64,000 nt of DNA from Streptomyces sp. SID8374. Lineage in GTDB: Bacteria > Actinomycetota > Actinomycetes > Streptomycetales > Streptomycetaceae. Every line of letters starts with the position of its first letter. Position 1 is the first letter of the stretch. The notes beneath the pieces are model-generated. The model was not told where the DNA came from. It saw nothing but the letters and a program-made list of their open reading frames with translations, and ran no database searches. This document shows positions 53,136 through 64,000 of the stretch, piece after piece. Position numbers and translations under genes: made by a program. Location of the stretch: the NCBI RefSeq assembly GCF_009865135.1, contig NZ_WWGH01000002.1:806001-870000 (forward strand), given 5' to 3'.

Positions 53136-53576
53136 ATGGACGGGCAGGACGAGGCGCTGGACAGTTCGACGAGCTGGGTCGCCACACACGTGCGGAGGTA
53201 TCTGGCGAGCGACGGGGCCAGCGGGCACATCTGGTACGGGAAGCCGACGCTCGTGCTGACCCACCGGGGGCGCACCTCAGGAGCGCTGCGGCGGACCGGA
53301 CTCATCTACGGGGAGGACGACGGGAACTTCGTCGTCGTCGGATCCAACGGGGGGTCCGACCTGCACCCGCAGTGGTACCTGAACCTGCTCGCCGACCCGC
53401 GGGCCCGGATCCAGGTGGCGGCCGACGTGCACGAGGTCGCCGCCCGGGAGGCCGAGGGGACGGAGCGGGACCGGCTCTGGGACGCGATGGCCGCGATCTT
53501 CCCGCAGTACAAGAGCTACCGGAAGAAGACCGAACGGCGCATTCCCGTCGTGGTGCTGGAGCCGCGGCAGGGCTGA
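53136..53576 (+). CDS. Deazaflavin (F420)-dependent nitroreductase-like protein
   Basis: 146 residues of the Ddn family, split beta-barrel. Motifs LVLTHRGRTSGALRRTGLIY and VVVGSNGGSDLHPQWYLNL are typical of F420-binding members. Reduces quinones or nitro-compounds, or simply binds F420. GGACGGAG precedes the ATG at 53136. Whether it belongs to the anthracycline cluster or flanks it is open. Confidence 0.85.
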   Translation: MDGQDEALDSSTSWVATHVRRYLASDGASGHIWYGKPTLVLTHRGRTSGALRRTGLIYGEDDGNFVVVGSNGGSDLHPQWYLNLLADPRARIQVAADVHEVAAREAEGTERDRLWDAMAAIFPQYKSYRKKTERRIPVVVLEPRQG

Positions 53577-53716: not shown

Positions 53717-55324
53717 GTGGGGAGAATCAGCCGCCGGGGGTTGCTGACCGCGGCAGCGGCGGGGGCCGCGACCGTGACCGCGACGAGGGGGGCGCAGGCG
53801 GACGCCGGAAGGCCGCCCAAGTCCACGCCGTGCGTGCCCGAGACGCGGATCACGACCGTGCGGGTGGGCGACGCCCGGTATCACGAGCTGGTCGCCAGGG
53901 GGTTCAACGGCCGGTACACCGGTTCGCCGGACAAGGTGCACGTGGTGCACTCGGCCGCGCAGGTCGTCCAGGTGCTGACCACCGCGGTGCGGGCGGGCAA
54001 GCGGGTCGCCGTCCGCAGCGGCGGGCACTGTTTCGAGAACTTCGCCGACCACCGCGACATCAGGGTGCTCATCGACACATCGCCGATGCGCTCGGTCTAC
54101 TTCGACCGCGAGCGCCGGGCCTTCGCCGTCGAGCCGGCCGCCACGCTCGCCGAGGTGTACCGCACCCTGCTCTACGACTACGGGGTCACCCTGCCTGGCG
54201 GTGTGTGCCCGCAGGTCGGGGCCGGCGGCCACGTCGCCGGCGGCGGGTACGGTCCGCTGACCCGCCGCGACGGCACCGTCGTCGACCACCTGTACGGCGT
54301 CGAGGTCGTCGTCGTGGACGCCTCGGGCCAGGCCCGGGTCGTCACCGCGACCCGCGAACCCGGCGACCCCAACCGGGAGTTGTGGTGGGCTCACACCGGA
54401 GGCGGTGGCGGCAACTTCGGCATCGTCACCCGCTATCTGTTCCGATCGCCGCAGGCGCAGGGGAACGACCCCGAGTCGCTCCTCCCGAAGCCGCCGACCC
54501 GCCTCCGCACGACGTTCGCCACCTGGTCCTGGGCCGACCTCGACCTGGACCGCTTCACCCGGCTCGTACAGAACTACAGCCGCTGGTTCGAGGCGCACCA
54601 CGCCGATCCGCGCTACAGCAGCCTCTACAGCACCCTGCACCTCAACACCCACGCCATCGGCTCGATCTCGATGGAGGCCCGCTTCGACGGCGGCAGGGCC
54701 GACGCGGCCGACCTGATCGACCTGTTCGTCGCGGCGGTGAACGAGGGCAGCGGGCTGACGCCCGCGGTCGAGCACCAGGACGACCTGTGGCTCCAGGCGA
54801 CCCTGGGCGCCCGCTACGACACCGACGGGTACGACCGGCACAAGTCGAAGAGCGCCTACCTGCGCCGCACCTGGACCGCCGAGCGGATCGCCACCGTGCA
54901 CCGCCATCTGACCGACCCCGCCTTCGAGGGGTGGGGCGCGGTCGACCTCTACTCCTACGGCGGCCGGGCGAACGCCGTGCCCTCCGCCGCGACCGCGGTG
55001 CCGCAGCGCGACTCGATCCTCAAGGCGTGGTTCTCCGTCACCTGGATGGATCCGGCCACCGACGACCTGCACCTGCGGTGGATCCGCGAGCTGTACCGGG
55101 ACGTCTTCGGCGACACGGGCGGTGTCCCCGTGCCCAACTCCGAACACGACGGCTGCTACATCAACTACCCGGACACCGACACCGCCGACCCGGCCTGGAA
55201 CACCTCCGGGGTGCCCTGGACGACCCTCTACTACAAGGACAGCTACCCCAGGCTCCAGCGGGTCAAGGCCGCCTGGGATCCGCAGAACGTCTTCCGCCAC
55301 GCGCTCTCCGTCCGGCTTCCCTGA
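53717..55324 (+). CDS. Bicovalent FAD oxidase of AknOx/berberine-bridge type, Tat-exported
   Basis: 535 residues from GTG 53717, which follows AAGGGG. A Tat signal (ISRRGLLTAAAAGAATV) is followed by an FAD domain, a substrate domain and a BBE tail (YYKDSYPRL, WDPQNVFRHALS). His104 in RSGGHCFENF and Cys164 in GGVCPQVGAGGHVAGGGYG match the two residues that link FAD in AknOx. AknOx oxidises the terminal deoxysugar of aclacinomycins (rhodinose to cinerulose and aculose). The position at the cluster end and the signal peptide fit a late oxidation outside the cell. Substrate sugar is inferred. Confidence 0.87.
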   Translation: MGRISRRGLLTAAAAGAATVTATRGAQADAGRPPKSTPCVPETRITTVRVGDARYHELVARGFNGRYTGSPDKVHVVHSAAQVVQVLTTAVRAGKRVAVRSGGHCFENFADHRDIRVLIDTSPMRSVYFDRERRAFAVEPAATLAEVYRTLLYDYGVTLPGGVCPQVGAGGHVAGGGYGPLTRRDGTVVDHLYGVEVVVVDASGQARVVTATREPGDPNRELWWAHTGGGGGNFGIVTRYLFRSPQAQGNDPESLLPKPPTRLRTTFATWSWADLDLDRFTRLVQNYSRWFEAHHADPRYSSLYSTLHLNTHAIGSISMEARFDGGRADAADLIDLFVAAVNEGSGLTPAVEHQDDLWLQATLGARYDTDGYDRHKSKSAYLRRTWTAERIATVHRHLTDPAFEGWGAVDLYSYGGRANAVPSAATAVPQRDSILKAWFSVTWMDPATDDLHLRWIRELYRDVFGDTGGVPVPNSEHDGCYINYPDTDTADPAWNTSGVPWTTLYYKDSYPRLQRVKAAWDPQNVFRHALSVRLP

Positions 55325-55374
55325 CCGCGGTACCCGGACGCCCGTACGAACACCACACGAAGGGAAACGAGTTC

Positions 55375-56229
55375 GTGGAGTCACGCCGAACCGTTGCCAC
55401 CCACCTCACCCTGGGCGGAGACCTGAGCGTCCGCCGCCTGGGCTTCGGCGCCCTTCGGCTGACCGGCCCCCATCACTGGGGGCCGCCGGCGAGGCCGGAG
55501 AAGGCGATCGAGGTCGTGCGGGAGGCGGTCGCGCTCGGCGTGACCTTCATCGACACCGCCGACGTCTACGGGCTCGGTGCCAACGAGGAGCTGCTCGCCG
55601 CCGCTCTCCACCCGTACGCCCCCGGCCTCGTCGTCTCCACCAAGGCGGGCGAGGTGCGGCCCGGGCCGCACCAGTGGCGGGTCCTCGGCCATCCCGACTA
55701 CCTGCGCCAGCAGGCCGAACTGAGCCTGCGCCGACTGCGGCTGGAGCGCGTCGAGCTGTTCCAGCTGCACCGGGTCGACCCGAAGGTCCCGCTGGAGGAC
55801 CAGGTCGGGGCGCTCAAGCAGCTCCAGGACGAGGGCAAGGTCCGGCACATCGGGCTCTCCGAGGTGACCGTCGCGCAGATCGAACAGGCCCGGGCCGTCG
55901 CCCCGATCGCCAGCATCCAGAACAAGTACGGTCTCGACGAACGCCGTTACGAGCCCGAGCTGGTGCACTGCGAGCGGGAGGGAATCGCCTTCATCGCCTG
56001 GAAGCCGCTCGCCGGCGCCGCCCGCCCGGCCGCGGGCAGCGCCTTGGCCCGGATCGCCGCGGAGACCGGCGCGAAACCGGCGCAGGTGGCCCTCGCCTGG
56101 CTGCTGCACCGCTCGCCCGTGATGATGCCGATCCCCGGCACGTCGTCCGTCGGTCACCTGCGGGCCAACATGGCTGCGGAGCGCCTCGCGCTCGACGAGA
56201 AGCACTTGGCGCTGCTCGACGAGGGGTGA
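55375..56229 (+). CDS. Aldo/keto reductase
   Basis: 284 residues, single AKR barrel. Catalytic tetrad members are visible: Asp and Tyr in FIDTADVYG, Lys in VVSTKAGEV and His in LFQLHRVD. The NADPH site lies in the PIPGTSSVGHL and W-K-P-L regions. GTG 55375 is placed 10 bp after GAAGGG. In this cluster it could reduce a keto group of a dTDP-deoxysugar or act elsewhere; no direct evidence for the substrate. Confidence 0.85.
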   Translation: MESRRTVATHLTLGGDLSVRRLGFGALRLTGPHHWGPPARPEKAIEVVREAVALGVTFIDTADVYGLGANEELLAAALHPYAPGLVVSTKAGEVRPGPHQWRVLGHPDYLRQQAELSLRRLRLERVELFQLHRVDPKVPLEDQVGALKQLQDEGKVRHIGLSEVTVAQIEQARAVAPIASIQNKYGLDERRYEPELVHCEREGIAFIAWKPLAGAARPAAGSALARIAAETGAKPAQVALAWLLHRSPVMMPIPGTSSVGHLRANMAAERLALDEKHLALLDEG

Positions 56230-56283
56230 CCGCGGTGGGGGCCCGGTGGTCGCGGCCGCCGGGTCCTCCCCGCAGGTCCGGTC

Positions 56284-57159
56284 TCAGGCGCGCATCTCGT
56301 CGGCCACGGCCATCACGTAAGAGCCGTATCCGGAACGGGAGAGCCTCACGCCCAGCTGGTGGCATGCCTCCGCGTCGATGAAGCCCATCCGCAGCGCGAT
56401 CTCCTCCAGGCAGGCGATGCGCACGCCCTGCCGGTCCTCCATCGTCTGCACGTACTGTCCGGCCTGGAGCAGTGACTCCGGCGTGCCGGCGTCGAGCCAG
56501 GCGAATCCCCTCCCGAAGGGCACGAGTTCGGCGCGTCCGGCGTTCAGGTAGACCCGGTTGACGTCGGTGATCTCCAGTTCGCCGCGGGGCGAGGGACGGA
56601 TCTGCCGGGCGATCTCCACGACGTCGTTGTCGTACAGGTAGAGGCCGGTGATGGCGAGGTTGGACCGGGGCTTCTCCGGCTTCTCGGCCAGCGACACCAG
56701 CCGCCCGTTCTCGTCGACTTCACCCACGCCGTACCGCTCCGGGTCGGTCACCGGATAGCCGAACAGGACGCAGCCGTCGAGCCCCCGCCGGTGGGTCGCG
56801 AGCAGGTCGTAGAAGCCGTTCCCGTGGAAGATGTTGTCGCCGAGGACGAGGGCGACGTCGTCGTCCCCGATGTGGTCGGCGCCGATGAGGAACGCCTGCG
56901 CCAGCCCCTCGGGGACCGGCTGTTCCGCATAGGAGAGGGAGAGCCCCAGCTGGCTTCCGTCGCCGAGCAGCCGCTGGAGCTGAGGAATGTCGCCCGGCAG
57001 TGCGATGATCAGGATGTCGCGGATGTCGGCAAGCATGAGCGCTGAGAGCGGATAGTAGATCAGAGGTTTGTCATTCACCGGCAGTAATTGTTTCGAAACG
57101 GCGAGAGTGATGGGATGCAGACGGCTTCCGTATCCGCCCGCAAGGATAATTCCTTTCAC
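56284..57159 (-). CDS. rmlA: Glucose-1-phosphate thymidylyltransferase
   Basis: 291 residues, RmlA family. Nucleotide site GGYGSRLHPITLAVSKQLLPV-type start (positions 8-28), LVLGDNIFHGNGF with the metal aspartate, EKPEKPRSNLA and WLDAGTPESLL. It activates glucose-1-phosphate to dTDP-glucose, the first step to deoxysugars such as rhodosamine. It is the only sugar-nucleotide gene in view. GTG start after AGGAGG; divergent from the ACP gene. Confidence 0.92.
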   Translation of the reverse strand: MKGIILAGGYGSRLHPITLAVSKQLLPVNDKPLIYYPLSALMLADIRDILIIALPGDIPQLQRLLGDGSQLGLSLSYAEQPVPEGLAQAFLIGADHIGDDDVALVLGDNIFHGNGFYDLLATHRRGLDGCVLFGYPVTDPERYGVGEVDENGRLVSLAEKPEKPRSNLAITGLYLYDNDVVEIARQIRPSPRGELEITDVNRVYLNAGRAELVPFGRGFAWLDAGTPESLLQAGQYVQTMEDRQGVRIACLEEIALRMGFIDAEACHQLGVRLSRSGYGSYVMAVADEMRA

Positions 57160-57286
57160 GACTCCTCCTGTTCCGGGAACTTCCCGACGACCCTAGGCGG
57201 CGGAGTTCCGACAAACAATGAAGGATGTGAGGGAGTCGACCGTCGTACGAGGTCGGGGGTGATTTGGATGCTTCTGTCCGGCGTCC

Positions 57287-57336
57287 TCGATCGGTTCTCG
57301 AGCATGCCGCTTCCGCTCCTGCATAGGGTGCTATGC
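57287..57336 (+). promoter_or_regulatory. Promoter of the ACP gene with SARP-like repeats
   Basis: TCGATCG (57287-57293) and TCGAGCA (57298-57304) are 11 bp apart start to start, as in DnrI-type operators. Further down, GCATAG-GGTG-CTATGC (57321-57336) is an inverted repeat overlapping a possible -10 TAGGGT. The 19 bp between the second heptamer and this -10 is 11 bp more than the usual 8. Confidence 0.45.
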
Positions 57337-57382
57337 GTGACCGCGGCTCATTCCGATATCGATCGTGAGGGAAGGTAGGACG

Positions 57383-57640
57383 ATGGCGAAAGAACTGACC
57401 GTCGAGCGGCTCTTCGGCATCCTGCGCGAGTGCGCGGGGGAGGAGGAGACCGTGGCAGGGGCGGAGGACGCCGTCGACGCGGAGTTCACGGAGCTGGGGT
57501 ACGACTCCCTGGCCCTTCTGGAGACCACCGCCCGCGTCTCCCAGGAGTACCGCGTGGACATCCCCGAGGACGAGCTCGCGGACGTGCGCACGCCGGCTGC
57601 CTTCCTGGAGACCGTCAACCGGCTGCTCGCCGTGGCCTGA
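57383..57640 (+). CDS. Acyl carrier protein
   Basis: 85 residues. Ser42 in ELGYDSLALLE takes the phosphopantetheine arm. The acidic helix 2 and the IPEDELADVRTPAAFLETV end are typical of type II polyketide ACPs. It would carry the decaketide-type chain in the anthracycline pathway, although no ketosynthase lies in the window. AAGGTAGGA precedes ATG 57383. Confidence 0.9.
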   Translation: MAKELTVERLFGILRECAGEEETVAGAEDAVDAEFTELGYDSLALLETTARVSQEYRVDIPEDELADVRTPAAFLETVNRLLAVA

Positions 57641-57741
57641 CGGCCGGCCGGCCCCACCGTGGCCGACCGTCCCCGGCCCTCGGCCGGTCCTGACCTGAGG
57701 TGCACATCGCGGACCTTTACCGGAGACCTGCGCCCCGTGGG

Positions 57742-57813
57742 TTCCCGGGAATGTTCACGGGGTGACGTCACGTTGAGGGGCGGGGTGACGTCACGTTAAA
57801 GGAATGGTAAGCA
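57742..57813 (+). promoter_or_regulatory. Promoter of the SARP gene with duplicated GTGACGTCAC palindrome
   Basis: GGGGTGACGTCACGTT occurs at 57759-57774 and again at 57782-57797 (23 bp apart), each containing the palindrome GTGACGTCAC. TTCCCGGGAA lies at 57742-57751. A -10-like GGTAAG or TAAGCA follows at 57806-57813. The duplicated site probably binds a dimeric regulator of the SARP gene. Confidence 0.6.
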
Positions 57814-57846
57814 CTGTCCCACGCTGACATCATGGGGGAAACCGTC

Positions 57847-58689
57847 GTGAAGCTAGGTGTCTTAGGGCCGCTGTCCGTACAAGTGGGTGAGGACTCGCAC
57901 ACGCCGAGCGCGCCCAAGATGAGAAGCGTCCTGGCGACGCTCCTCGTGCACGCCGATCAGGTCGTGCCCGTGTCGTCGCTGATCCGGGAGCTCTGGGACG
58001 AGAATCCGCCCGTCAGCTGCCTGACCACGCTGCAGACGTACATCCTCAACCTGCGCAAGTTGTTCGCCACCGCCGCCAGACTGACCACCCGGCAGGTGGC
58101 CTCCGAGATCCTCGTGACCCGCTCCGGGGGGTATCTCTTCCGCTCCGGCCGTGACGATCTGGACGTGCACCGCTTCCACGAGCTCGTCGCGGACGGACGC
58201 CGGGCGCTGTCCTCCGGCGACGATGTCACCGCCCTGGCCACCCTCACCAGCGCCCTCCAGGTCTGGCGCGGGCCGGCGCTGGTCGACGTCACCGCCGGCC
58301 GCATCGTCGAAGGGCGCCGCCAGCAGTTCGAGGAGTCACGGCTCGTCGTCCTCGAGTACCTCGTCGACACGCAGCTGAGGCTGGGCATGTACCGCGAGGT
58401 CCTCACCGAGCTGGCCGCGCTCACCGCGGACAACCCCTACCACGAAGGCCTGCACGCCCAGTACATGCGCGCCCTGTACCTCAACGGGCGGCGTGCCCAG
58501 GCCCTGGAGGTGTTCCAGCGCCTCCGGGTCAACCTCGTCAACCACCTCGGCCTGGAACCCGGGCTCGCCGCCCAGGAACTGCACCGCTCCATCCTCAACG
58601 CGGAACCGATCGACGCCCAGGGCGGTCTGCGCCGGCCCACCGGTGACATCGTCCGCATGTCCTCCGCGGGCGCCTCGCGTGTCTACTGA
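57847..58689 (+). CDS. SARP-family pathway activator, DnrI-like
   Basis: 280 residues from GTG 57847. An OmpR-like winged-helix DNA-binding domain (about 1-95) is followed by the bacterial transcriptional activation domain (about 95-250, HRFHELVADGRRALSSGD, EVFQRLRVNLVNHLGLEP). Codon 6 is TTA (57862-57864), so translation should need the bldA tRNA and hence occur late. GGGGGAA precedes GTG at the right distance, whereas ATG 57832 has no RBS. Likely activates the cluster's operons. Confidence 0.9.
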   Translation: MKLGVLGPLSVQVGEDSHTPSAPKMRSVLATLLVHADQVVPVSSLIRELWDENPPVSCLTTLQTYILNLRKLFATAARLTTRQVASEILVTRSGGYLFRSGRDDLDVHRFHELVADGRRALSSGDDVTALATLTSALQVWRGPALVDVTAGRIVEGRRQQFEESRLVVLEYLVDTQLRLGMYREVLTELAALTADNPYHEGLHAQYMRALYLNGRRAQALEVFQRLRVNLVNHLGLEPGLAAQELHRSILNAEPIDAQGGLRRPTGDIVRMSSAGASRVY

Positions 58690-58692
58690 GAG

Positions 58693-58732
58693 CCCCGGGG
58701 GCCCGGTCCGCGTGCGGACCGGGCCCCCGGGG
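58693..58732. terminator. Terminator between the SARP gene and the methyltransferase
   Basis: 18-bp stem CCCCGGGGGCCCGGTCCG with its complement around CGTG; serves the SARP gene and the convergent methyltransferase. Confidence 0.85.
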
Positions 58733-58751
58733 CGTGCGCACGGGAGGAGGC

Positions 58752-59609
58752 TCAGCGCGCCACGTGCGCCAGCACGAACCGCACCGGGGTCGGCAGGCGC
58801 AGCGGGCCGTCCCCCCGCAGCCGGTCCAGCTCCGTGATCAGCCGCTTCCGCAACTGCGCGCTCTCGTACGCCGGGAGGTGCTGCCACAGCAGCCGCATGC
58901 CCTGGGTGTGCGACCAGTCCACCCACGTCCTGCCGTCCGCGGCCACCAGCTGCACGTGCTCGTCGGCGACCTCGATGTCCTCGAAACCGGCCCGGATCAT
59001 CGTCCGGGTCAGTTCGTCCCGGTCCCCGAGCCAGCTGTTGAACCGGCGTTTCAGGGCCTCCGGCTGCCACTCCGCCGGCAGGTTGCGCAGCAGCCGCTCC
59101 GGGATCAGGTCGGTGAAGACCGGCGGCAGGAACGGGAAGGTGTCGTCCGTGAAGACCGGACTGGTGAAGGCGATCCGGCCGCCCGGACGCAGCAGCGACG
59201 CGTACCGCCCCAGCGCCTTCGGGGCGTCCGGCAGGAAGATCACGCTGTAGCTGCCCGTCACCGCGTCGAACGAGGCCGGCGGGAGATCGGGGTGCTCGCC
59301 GTCCATGACCCGCACCTCGACGTGGCGGGTCCCCAGCGCCACCGCCCGCTCACGGGCCGCCTCCACCATCGCGGGCGCGATGTCGATACCGAGCACGTGG
59401 CCCGAGGGGCCCACCCGGTCGGCCGCCTCGAACAGCACGGCGCCGCGGCCGCAGCCGACGTCGAGGATCCGCTCGCCCGGGCGCGGGGCGGTCCGCTCCA
59501 CGAGTCGCCGTCCCATGGGTGTGAAGAATTCGACCCCCATCTGGTCGTAGGTGGCGGCGGCCTCGTTGAATGCCTCGGTCACCGTTGACTTGTACTTCGT
59601 CTCGTCCAT
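58752..59609 (-). CDS. SAM-dependent methyltransferase, probable aklanonic acid methyltransferase
   Basis: 285 residues, class I fold: ILDVGCGRGAVLFEAAD (SAM loop), GIDIAPAMVEAA, and ITSPVFTDD-like segments further on. Size and the run TYDQMGVEFFTPMGRRLVE resemble what I recall of DnrC/AknG enzymes, which methylate the carboxyl of aklanonic acid before ring closure. It is divergent from the cyclase for the next step. A sugar O-methyltransferase is the main alternative. ATG 59609 chosen; the frame upstream has no RBS. Confidence 0.65.
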   Translation of the reverse strand: MDETKYKSTVTEAFNEAAATYDQMGVEFFTPMGRRLVERTAPRPGERILDVGCGRGAVLFEAADRVGPSGHVLGIDIAPAMVEAARERAVALGTRHVEVRVMDGEHPDLPPASFDAVTGSYSVIFLPDAPKALGRYASLLRPGGRIAFTSPVFTDDTFPFLPPVFTDLIPERLLRNLPAEWQPEALKRRFNSWLGDRDELTRTMIRAGFEDIEVADEHVQLVAADGRTWVDWSHTQGMRLLWQHLPAYESAQLRKRLITELDRLRGDGPLRLPTPVRFVLAHVAR

Positions 59610-59670
59610 GGTTCCTCTCCGGATGAGGTAGCCGACGCGACCACTTTCTCCGCTGTTTCTGGAACGGGGG

Positions 59671-59735
59671 TCGATCCGCACTCGGCGCCCGCTCGAATTC
59701 CGCTTTCCTTTCGGTCGATGAGCACGGGATCGGAT
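59671..59735 (+). promoter_or_regulatory. SARP-type operator and promoter of the cyclase operon
   Basis: Heptamers TCGATCC (59671), TCGGCGC (59682), TCGAATT (59693) and TCGATGA (59715) are spaced 11, 11 and 22 bp, one face of the helix. The last is followed after exactly 8 bp by a -10-like TCGGAT (59730-59735). This is the arrangement of DnrI/ActII-ORF4-type activation, with weak -35 replaced by the activator. Confidence 0.65.
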
Positions 59736-59800
59736 TGTTGCGGGCGCTCCGGGAAGCCAGGATGGGGTCACCGCCCATTTTCCCGACGAGGAGGTCCGCC

Positions 59801-60238
59801 GTGGCCGATCACATCGACATCGTGCGCCGCATGGTGAACGCGTACAACACCGGTGACGTCGACGACGTGGCTGAATTCATTCACCCCGACTATCTGAATC
59901 CGGGCGCCTTGGAGCACATGCCCACGCTCCGTGGCCCCGAGGCGTTCGCCCTCGCGGTCAAGTGGCTCAAGCTGACCTTCTCCGACGAGGCGCACCTGGA
60001 GGAGATCTCCTACGAGGAGAACGGCAGTTGGGTCCGCGCCAAGCTCGCCCTCTACGGTCGCCAGGTCGGCGAACTCGTCGGAATGCCGGCCACCGGCCGC
60101 CGATTCTCCGGCGAGCAGATCCACCTCATCCGGATTGTCGACGACAAGATCCGCGACCACCGCGACTGGCCCGACTACCTCGGCACCTACCGCCAGCTCG
60201 GCGAGCCCTGGCCGACCGAGGAGGGCTGGCGGCCCTGA
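59801..60238 (+). CDS. SnoaL/AknH-type polyketide cyclase
   Basis: 145 residues, NTF2-like fold. It is very close in pattern to aklanonic acid methyl ester cyclases (DIVRRMVNAYNTGDVDDV, FSGEQIHLIRIVDDKI, HRDWPDYLGTYRQLGEP). It closes the fourth ring by an intramolecular aldol; the catalytic aspartate is in DHRDWPDY. Tyr15 is as recalled for AknH, while the residue equivalent to AknH Asn51 is Ala52 here, so C-9 stereochemistry is not settled. GTG 59801 follows GAGGAGG. First gene of the operon. Confidence 0.92.
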   Translation: MADHIDIVRRMVNAYNTGDVDDVAEFIHPDYLNPGALEHMPTLRGPEAFALAVKWLKLTFSDEAHLEEISYEENGSWVRAKLALYGRQVGELVGMPATGRRFSGEQIHLIRIVDDKIRDHRDWPDYLGTYRQLGEPWPTEEGWRP

Positions 60239-60295
60239 CCCCGCCCCGACTTCCGTGCGCCCCGCGCATCCTCGGCACCCCAGGGAAGGAACACG

Positions 60296-62351
<2,056 letters not shown>

Positions 62352-62395
62352 CCGCGCGGGAGCAGGCGCCGGAGCCGACGGGAGCCGGACACACC

Positions 62396-63109
62396 ATGTA
62401 CGGACGGGACCTGGCCCAGGTCTACGACCTGGTCCACAAGGAACGCGGCAAGGACTACCGGGTGGAGGCGGAGGCCGTGGCCGCCGCCGCACGCCGTCAC
62501 CGTCGCGACGCCTCCCGGCTGCTCGACGTCGCCTGCGGGACCGGCGGCCACCTGTGCCACTTCGCCGAACTCTTCGATCACGTCGAGGGACTGGAGCTGT
62601 CGGAGCCGATGGCCGTCGCCGCCCGGGCGGCGCTGCCCGGCACGCCTGTCCACCTGGGCGACATGCGCGACTTCCAGCTCGACGCCCGCTTCTCGGTGGT
62701 CACCTGCATGTTCGGCTCCATCGGCTACATGGAGTCCACCACCGAACTACGGCGCGCGCTCGACATGTTCGCACGGCACCTGGAGCCCGGCGGGGTGGCC
62801 GTGGTCGACCCCTGGTGGTTCGACGAGACCTTCCTCGACGGTCACGTCTCCGCCGACGTGGTCACCGTCGACGGCGTGACCGTCTCCCGCGTCTCGCACT
62901 CCGCCCGCCGGGGCCGCGTCTCGCACATGGACGTCCATGTCGTCGTCGCCGAACCGGGCGTCGGAGCACATCACTTCGTCGACCGGCACGACATCTCCCT
63001 GTTCAGCCGGGAGGAGTACGAGGAGGCCTTCTGCGCCGCCGGATTCCGGGTCGAATACCTGCCGGGGCAACCCTCCGGGCGGGGGCTGTTCGTCGGCGTC
63101 CTGACATGA
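62396..63109 (+). CDS. Aminosugar N,N-dimethyltransferase (TylM1/DesVI/AknX2 type)
   Basis: 237 residues. Begins MYGRDLAQVYDLVHKERGKD, the signature of dTDP-3-amino-sugar N,N-dimethyltransferases, followed by LLDVACGTGGHLCHFAEL. It would dimethylate the 3-amino group of a dTDP-deoxysugar to form rhodosamine. A longer GTG start at 62348 overlapping the rdmC stop is possible; ATG 62396 matches family starts. Family call is from motif recall. Confidence 0.8.
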   Translation: MYGRDLAQVYDLVHKERGKDYRVEAEAVAAAARRHRRDASRLLDVACGTGGHLCHFAELFDHVEGLELSEPMAVAARAALPGTPVHLGDMRDFQLDARFSVVTCMFGSIGYMESTTELRRALDMFARHLEPGGVAVVDPWWFDETFLDGHVSADVVTVDGVTVSRVSHSARRGRVSHMDVHVVVAEPGVGAHHFVDRHDISLFSREEYEEAFCAAGFRVEYLPGQPSGRGLFVGVLT

Positions 63110-63164
63110 CCGGGGACGCGGGCGCCGCCCGCACCCGAGCAGCGAACGACACGAGAGGAGCGAC

Positions 63165-64000
63165 ATGAACGACCACGAGGTCGACGTCCTGGTGGTGGGT
63201 GCGGGGCTCGGCGGCCTGTCCACGGCGATGTTCCTCGCCCGTCAGGGCGTCCGGGTACTCGTGGTGGAGCGGAGGTCCGGGCTCTCGCCCTACCCACGCG
63301 CCGCCGGTCAGAACCCGCGGACCATGGAACTGCTGCGGATCGGCGGCGTCGCCGCCGAGGTCGTCCGGGCCGACGACATCCGCGGCGACCAGGGCGACTT
63401 CGTCATCCGGATCGGCCGCACGGTCCGCGGCGAACCCCTACGCACCGTGTCGGAGAGCTTCGACGACATGGTCGCCGCCACCGCCCCCTGCACTCCGGCG
63501 GGCTGGGCCATGCTCTCCCAGGACAAGCTGGAGCCGATCCTCCTCGCCCAGGCCGAACGCCACGGCGGCGCCGTCCGTTTCGACACCCGGCTGGTCTCCT
63601 TCCGGCAGGACGACGACGGCGTGACGGCCACCCTGGAGGGCCCCGACGGCGGATACGACCTGCGGGCCCGCAACCTCGTCGCGGCCGACGGCAACCGCAG
63701 CGCCGTCCGCGAGTCCCTCGGCATCGGACGGTACGGACACGGGACCCTCGCCCTCATGGCAGGCGTCATCTTCGACGCGGACCTGACGGGCCTGCTGGAG
63801 GCAGGTTCCACCGGCTGGTACTACCTCCACCACCCCGAGTTCACCGGCACCTTCGGCCCCACCGACTGCCCCGACCGCTTCACCCTCTTCGTCGAGTACG
63901 ACCCGGAGAAGGGGGAGAGCCCCGACGACTTCACCCCGGAGCGGTGCACCGAGCTCATCCGGCTCGCGCTGGAGGACCCCGGTCTGGAACCGGAGATCAT
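63165..64000 (+). CDS. rdmE: RdmE-like FAD aromatic hydroxylase, aklavinone-11-hydroxylase (partial)
   Basis: 278 residues visible; the gene continues beyond the right edge. FAD-binding GAGLGG (12-17), the second FAD motif around VAADGNRSAVRE, and the typical ERRSGLSPYPRAAGQNPRTM. It resembles what I recall of RdmE, which adds OH at C-11 of aklavinone to give epsilon-rhodomycinone. GAGAGGAG precedes ATG 63165. Confidence 0.9.
   Translation, partial: MNDHEVDVLVVGAGLGGLSTAMFLARQGVRVLVVERRSGLSPYPRAAGQNPRTMELLRIGGVAAEVVRADDIRGDQGDFVIRIGRTVRGEPLRTVSESFDDMVAATAPCTPAGWAMLSQDKLEPILLAQAERHGGAVRFDTRLVSFRQDDDGVTATLEGPDGGYDLRARNLVAADGNRSAVRESLGIGRYGHGTLALMAGVIFDADLTGLLEAGSTGWYYLHHPEFTGTFGPTDCPDRFTLFVEYDPEKGESPDDFTPERCTELIRLALEDPGLEPEI

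Follow-up and report, generated by a model that had tools for sequence, protein, structure and literature searches.

A complete anthracycline gene cluster, very probably of the cosmomycin/cytorhodin type, in Streptomyces sp. SID8374

The window analyzed here is a stretch of 64,000 nucleotides from Streptomyces sp. SID8374 (C2:806001-870000, where C2 is contig NZ_WWGH01000002.1 of a 7.78-Mb genome in four contigs), and its right end had been predicted to be one end of an anthracycline cluster. Addition of the surrounding DNA (C2:850001-960000) bore this out, revealing a complete locus of 41 genes and 43.3 kb that runs from window position 53136 to position 96466 (C2:859136-902466; positions above 64000 continue the window numbering to the right and equal the record coordinate minus 806000). 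Its left 11 kb occupy the right end of the window. The locus is very probably an ordinary cosmomycin/cytorhodin-type cluster, for a rhodomycin-family antibiotic of the anticancer type, as judged from gene content, a one-to-one match with the cosmomycin D locus of Streptomyces olindensis, and diagnostic residues in the tailoring enzymes. The cluster is a new example of a known anthracycline cluster type, and its real structural difference is an inverted right half, which lies beyond the DNA on which the original prediction was based.

Genes were called from codon-position G+C and start sites. Fifty proteins from the cluster and its right flank were annotated with NCBIfam, and 10 proteins, partly overlapping with these, with Pfam; the PDB sequence search covered the AknOx, RdmB, RdmC, and RdmE homologues.

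Correspondence with known clusters and placement of the acyl carrier protein gene

A search with the RdmE homologue led to six close loci in named genomes (80 to 90% identity) and one distant match (33%, Mycolicibacterium). The surroundings of the six were compared gene by gene: S. olindensis DAUFPE 5622 (JJOH01000002.1), the producer of cosmomycin D; S. zinciresistens K42 (NZ_AGBF01000013.1); S. viridiviolaceus JCM 4855; Streptomyces sp. 378; S. violaceus NRRL B-2867; and Streptomyces sp. TP-A0873. All 41 genes have a best match of at least 55% identity in each of the first five, with medians of 83% in S. olindensis (range, 57 to 92%), 90% in S. zinciresistens (72 to 96%), and 82% in S. viridiviolaceus, sp. 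378, and S. violaceus, several of the S. violaceus matches being partial in coverage (for example, 43% for the AknOx homologue and 35% for gene 038). TP-A0873 carries 39 of the 41 on two contigs (16 and 23 genes; medians, 92 and 93%); its aldo-keto reductase match is partial (62%), and the two leftmost genes would fall past the contig end. In S. zinciresistens the order and strands of the genes are also identical to those in the window; the title of its record gives no product, and among the papers available for searching none mentions this species together with an anthracycline.

Much of this gene set is shared with aclacinomycin-type clusters. In each of five such clusters (labeled from gene content and examined as 80-kb stretches), 32 of the 41 genes are matched at 38% identity or more, two of these (genes 022 and 040) falling on the same place, and the AknOx homologue reaches 57 to 61%. 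It could therefore be argued that the locus is of the aclacinomycin/cinerubin type, with 10- and 11-hydroxylation absent and the RdmB, RdmC, and RdmE homologues peripheral to it, since all five share with it AknOx, cytA/aclJ, the two N-methyltransferases, and the majority of the core genes. Yet the same five stretches hold no match to RdmB, RdmC, or RdmE at the 38% threshold, whereas these three genes form one block in 6/6 close relatives. The acyl carrier protein (ACP) gene is also differently placed: in 5/5 aclacinomycin-type clusters it lies beside the genes for the chain length factor (CLF) and ketosynthase III (KSIII), unlike in the window cluster, where it stands outside the ketosynthase (KS)/CLF operon, and the gene order as a whole is largely different. 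We rejected the aclacinomycin-type assignment on the missing RdmB, RdmC, and RdmE matches and regard it as extremely unlikely.

The ACP gene lies about 26.5 kb from the ketosynthase alpha (KS-alpha) gene and next to rmlA. The original prediction had placed both the ACP gene and rmlA correctly, and had suggested that their separation from the minimal polyketide synthase (PKS) and the glycosyltransferases might mark a new cluster arrangement. However, ACP adjoins rmlA in all six of the other cosmomycin-type clusters, that of the cosmomycin D producer included, although in TP-A0873 KS-alpha is on a separate contig. ACP is likewise apart from KS/CLF in 4/4 further RdmE-bearing clusters of other types (the G015, G096, G236, and G353 loci; L094-L109). 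Detachment of ACP is thus not new, and we rejected the suggestion. These four loci combine RdmE-, RdmC-, RdmB/DnrK-family, and AknOx-like genes in differing orders.

Diagnostic residues of the tailoring enzymes

The solved proteins closest to the four tailoring enzymes are AknOx, RdmB, RdmC, and RdmE themselves; had any of the four been nearer to a non-anthracycline family, this would have counted against the original prediction. The RdmE homologue scores 790 bits against NF046069 (cut-off, 700 bits), a model whose own name says 12-hydroxylase. The RdmC homologue keeps the catalytic Ser, Asp, and His, as do 11/11 proteins aligned, at positions that we take to correspond to Ser102, Asp248, and His276 of RdmC.

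In the alignment, F318-S319 and R325 of the RdmB homologue correspond to Phe300, Ser301, and Arg307 of RdmB. Insertion of a Ser after the Phe300 position reportedly switched DnrK to 10-hydroxylation (PMC9976750). This Ser is present in 7/7 cosmomycin-type proteins, that of the window included, and its column is a gap in 4/4 homologues from the other cluster types; two of these four have a three-residue insertion nearby, like that of CalMB (PMC9976750). The residue bears directly on the possibility of a daunorubicin- or komodoquinone-like pathway, in which the RdmB homologue would be a 4-O-methyltransferase (DnrK) or a 10-decarboxylase (EamK/TamK). Such enzymes belong to the same protein family, and the four other clusters in the genus do join RdmE-, RdmC-, RdmB/DnrK-, and AknOx-like genes, but the switching Ser is found here and in 6/6 relatives and is absent from those four clusters. 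We rejected a role as 4-O-methyltransferase on the Ser insertion, and consider a pathway of this kind highly improbable.

H104, C164, Y412, and Y484 of the AknOx homologue align with His70, Cys130, and both catalytic tyrosines of AknOx, and the spacing of the Tyr pair, 72 residues, is that of AknOx; the published criteria are a His and a Cys that hold FAD bicovalently, together with catalytic Tyr421 and Tyr493 (PMC10054333). Both tyrosines are kept in 6/6 available cosmomycin-type proteins (the S. violaceus sequence is incomplete and lacks the His/Cys part, and the TP-A0873 contig carries no copy) and in 5/5 aclacinomycin-type sequences. In the AknOx homologues of the G015, G096, G236, and G353 clusters, the first catalytic Tyr is Leu or Ser. 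Among 392 genomes of the genus, one per species and evenly drawn from a larger group, 140 contain AknOx-like genes (E ≤ 1e-120) and eight contain RdmE matches (E ≤ 1e-150), four of them at 80% identity or more, the genome studied here being counted each time; judging by coordinates, the other three at that level are apparently the genomes of TP-A0873, S. zinciresistens, and sp. 378 already compared above. Because AknOx-like genes are so common, AknOx similarity by itself is a weak marker and the active-site residues weigh more.

Two arrangements of the right half

Genes 008 to 025, the left 18 genes of the cluster, agree in order and strand between the window and the five named clusters, as do genes 010 to 025 in TP-A0873. 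Genes 026 to 048 (72063-96466; C2:878063-902466; 24.4 kb, 23 genes) run forward in S. zinciresistens as they do in the window, whereas they form one exactly inverted block in S. olindensis, S. viridiviolaceus, sp. 378, and S. violaceus. A cluster of this type need not have the S. olindensis gene order to function. At both sides the ends of the block coincide with the 3' ends of genes, so that transcription units are left intact. Genes 025 and 026 are spaced about 80 to 150 bp apart in the window and S. zinciresistens. When the two ends of the inverted block in the window's genome were searched for inverted repeats, only chance-level matches came up (best E value, 0.19).

In TP-A0873 the block is on its own contig. 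Its gene 026 end points to the contig start, with transposase genes in between, and beyond its gene 048 end come 12 kb that hold no cluster genes. Gene 048 is therefore not joined to gene 025, and TP-A0873 probably carries the window's order, although no contig spans the junction. The TP-A0873 contig ends flanking genes 025 and 026 (L011:18420-19097 and L034:1-3700), where the inversion junction falls, hold transposase parts (DDE_Tnp_1_6 and DUF772), and further open reading frames at its contig ends look transposase-like by eye. In a tree of six proteins, built from the best-scoring homologue per cluster, the window, S. zinciresistens, and TP-A0873 group together with a support of 1.000.

An assembly error is very unlikely to account for the inversion of the right half. 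The evidence does come from assemblies, with the TP-A0873 junction lacking a spanning contig, but single contigs carry the window's order in two assemblies (its own and that of S. zinciresistens) and the other order in four; the tree also places the two orders on separate branches, and in TP-A0873 the 12 kb beyond gene 048 argue against its being joined to gene 025. As to polarity, the S. olindensis junction, gene 025 next to inverted gene 048, is found in two of nine outgroup clusters (G015 and G353) and the 025-026 junction in none, suggesting that the window's order may be derived, a weak indication since G015 and G353 are closely related. Neither junction is present in the five aclacinomycin-type clusters, which are thus uninformative.

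Gene inventory, predicted pathway, and product

The features of the cluster are collected in Table 1. The original prediction had begun the cluster at the AknOx gene; that gene starts where it was placed (53717), but a cytA-like gene to its left was overlooked, and the cluster really starts at about 53136. A lack of type II PKS genes in the next 50 kb or so on the right would have counted against the original prediction, but KS-alpha, CLF, KSIII, and acyltransferase genes are there, with three glycosyltransferase genes (TIGR04516, all above cut-off) and deoxysugar genes.

Table 1. Features of the anthracycline cluster (window coordinates; values above 64000 are extended)
Feature	Position	Strand	Evidence or remark
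cytA/aclJ-like quinone reductase, 146 aa, first cluster gene	53136..53576	+	PF04075, 142 bits
AknOx/CytB-like FAD oxidase (terminal deoxysugar)	53717..55324	+	2ipi AknOx, 678 bits
Aldo-keto reductase, CytC-like by position	55375..56229	+	PF00248, 219 bits
rmlA, glucose-1-phosphate thymidylyltransferase	56284..57159	-	TIGR01207, 418 bits, above cut-off
Type II PKS acyl carrier protein	57383..57640	+	GYDSL phosphopantetheine site; family scores weak, best 28 bits
SARP activator	57832..58689	+	SARP-family matches below cut-offs; 89-91% in relatives
AknG/DnrC-type methyltransferase	58752..59609	-	Name from position and size; methyltransferase matches below cut-offs
SnoaL/AknH-type methyl ester cyclase (fourth ring)	59801..60238	+	NF033407 SnoaL/DnrD, 271 vs cut-off 200 bits
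RdmB-type 10-hydroxylase	60296..61462	+	1qzz, 542 bits
RdmC-type 15-methylesterase	61455..62351	+	1q0r, 562 bits
Aminosugar N-methyltransferase 1	62396..63109	+	NF041820, 64.5 bits, below cut-off
RdmE aklavinone 11-hydroxylase	63165..64760	+	Past window end at 64000; NF046069; 3ihg, 944 bits
Gfo/Idh oxidoreductase, cytochrome P450 (P450)-like glycosyltransferase (GT) activator and GT, RfbH-like 3-dehydratase, FabG-like ketoreductase, two-part aromatase	64852-71979		In order
Right block, first part: UvrA-like, glutathione-peroxidase-like, DrrB, DrrA, rmlB, GT and activator, acyltransferase (AT), KSIII, CLF, KS-alpha	72063-96466 (whole block)		In order
KS-alpha	84157-85425		About 20 kb beyond window end
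Right block, continued: 111-aa gene, ornithine-cyclodeaminase-like, PadR regulator, GT, rmlC, 4-ketoreductase, 485-aa gene, aminotransferase			
Right block, end: second N-methyltransferase, cyclase, SnoaL-like gene, short-chain dehydrogenase/reductase	to 96466		

The first three genes, at the cluster edge, match in family, size, and order the cytABC cassette of the cytorhodin (cyt) cluster of Streptomyces sp. SCSIO 1666, a cluster likened here by its description (PMC6897945): cytA for a 151-aa reductase, cytB for an AknOx homologue, and cytC for an aldo-keto reductase, near the cluster boundary; cyt and cos proteins are more than 80% identical (PMC6897945). By family, size, and neighbors the product of the first gene fits a CytA homologue. 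Counterparts in the same place (77 to 87% identical) occur in 5/5 named clusters that reach that point, and the aldo-keto reductase is matched at 78 to 88% in the same number. In the published assays, CytA was a colorless protein supplied with NADH (PMC6897945); given the match to PF04075, an F420H(2)-dependent family, the natural cofactor of CytA-type reductases may be F420H2. The cytA homologue of S. olindensis (G003:C2:295244, 78%) adjoins its AknOx homologue; by contrast, the cosmomycin cluster captured from another strain is described as having no cytA (PMC6897945).

The methyltransferase at 58752-59609 is matched at 82 to 91% in the relatives and 65 to 68% in the aclacinomycin-type clusters; AknG has 286 aa (PMC10054333). 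N-methyltransferase 1 is AclP-like by place, its counterpart adjoining AknOx in aclacinomycin-type clusters, and the second N-methyltransferase (C2:899448-900149) is 53% identical to it; rhodosamine needs two such enzymes (PMC10936713). The rmlA and rmlB genes exceed their cut-offs, and there are also genes resembling rmlC, a 4-ketoreductase, and an aminotransferase. Homologues of cosI, cosJ, cosP, and cosU, named as a self-resistance set (PMC9241694), are consecutive, with identities of 68 to 95% across the five named clusters. Gene 038 (85886-86890), the ornithine cyclodeaminase/mu-crystallin-like gene, adjoins the 111-aa gene and is kept in 6/6 relatives; together with gene 021, for a GT activator, it is the most diverged (57 to 59% against the four S. 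olindensis-type clusters; in S. olindensis itself, 57% for gene 038 and 59% for gene 021).

The left flank holds a tRNA (uracil-5)-methyltransferase-like gene. In the right flank, P450s adjoin a conservon-like run (Robl_LC7, DUF742, ATP-binding), and the genes there find at best weak partial matches in the relatives' stretches: gene 049 has only 27 to 30% matches, in four of seven sequence sets, and gene 050 has a match in one set, at 28% identity and covering 38% of the gene. With matches this weak and the conservon-like run adjoining, the flanking P450s (96713-99397) were rejected as pathway enzymes.

The best reading of the predicted product is a cosmomycin/cytorhodin-type beta-rhodomycinone glycoside with rhodosamine and a possibly oxidized terminal sugar. 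This upholds the product class originally proposed (rhodomycin/cosmomycin/cytorhodin-like, perhaps with an oxidized sugar). We infer the product and the order of the pathway steps from gene content, cluster correspondence, gene order, and diagnostic residues, all of which were read directly. KS-alpha, CLF, and ACP, with KSIII and AT, the full set as for a propionate starter (itself inferred from AknD, AknE2, and AknF; PMC10054333), would build a propionate-started decaketide, which would be reduced, aromatized, and cyclized to an aklanonic acid-type intermediate. The SnoaL-type cyclase would close the ring towards aklavinone, and RdmE would hydroxylate C-11 to give epsilon-rhodomycinone. Glycosyltransferases would add L-rhodosamine, its amino group dimethylated by the two N-methyltransferases, and further deoxysugars. 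RdmC would then strip the 15-methyl ester and RdmB convert the freed acid to a 10-hydroxyl, which could bear a second sugar chain. The AknOx homologue, whose N terminus is of the twin-arginine type (SRRGLLTAAA) and which is probably extracellular, could oxidize terminal rhodinose to cinerulose or aculose. The CytA-like reductase may remove the C-7 sugar chain as self-protection, and DrrAB-type export (CosIJ), the UvrA-like CosU, and the peroxidase CosP would protect further.

Several observations weigh against this reading. One of the two P450-like GT activators exceeds the TIGR04515 cut-off, but the other falls below it (222 versus 343 bits), as does rmlC for its family (123 versus 156 bits), and neither aminosugar N-methyltransferase reaches the cut-off of its best-matching family. 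The NCBIfam search gave no match for the 485-aa gene or the 111-aa gene, which we take, from size and position and in part with PMC10054333, to encode a 2,3-dehydratase and an AknX-like oxygenase, respectively. Because most genes are common to cosmomycin D and cytorhodin clusters, the final glycosides cannot be read from gene content. Furthermore, cosmomycin D is a rhodinose compound, and the S. olindensis AknOx homologue keeps all four active-site residues; an intact gene is thus no proof of an oxidized sugar. A congener in which the AknOx homologue oxidizes terminal rhodinose to cinerulose or L-aculose, coupled to a derived inversion that alters the co-regulation of the two pathway halves, seems unlikely.

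Overall, the cluster adds a complete genomic source for a known, medically relevant anthracycline scaffold. Together the seven corresponding clusters offer a natural comparison between two arrangements that are one 24-kb inversion of whole transcription units apart, and the cluster described here bears on whether AknOx homologues act in cosmomycin-type pathways.

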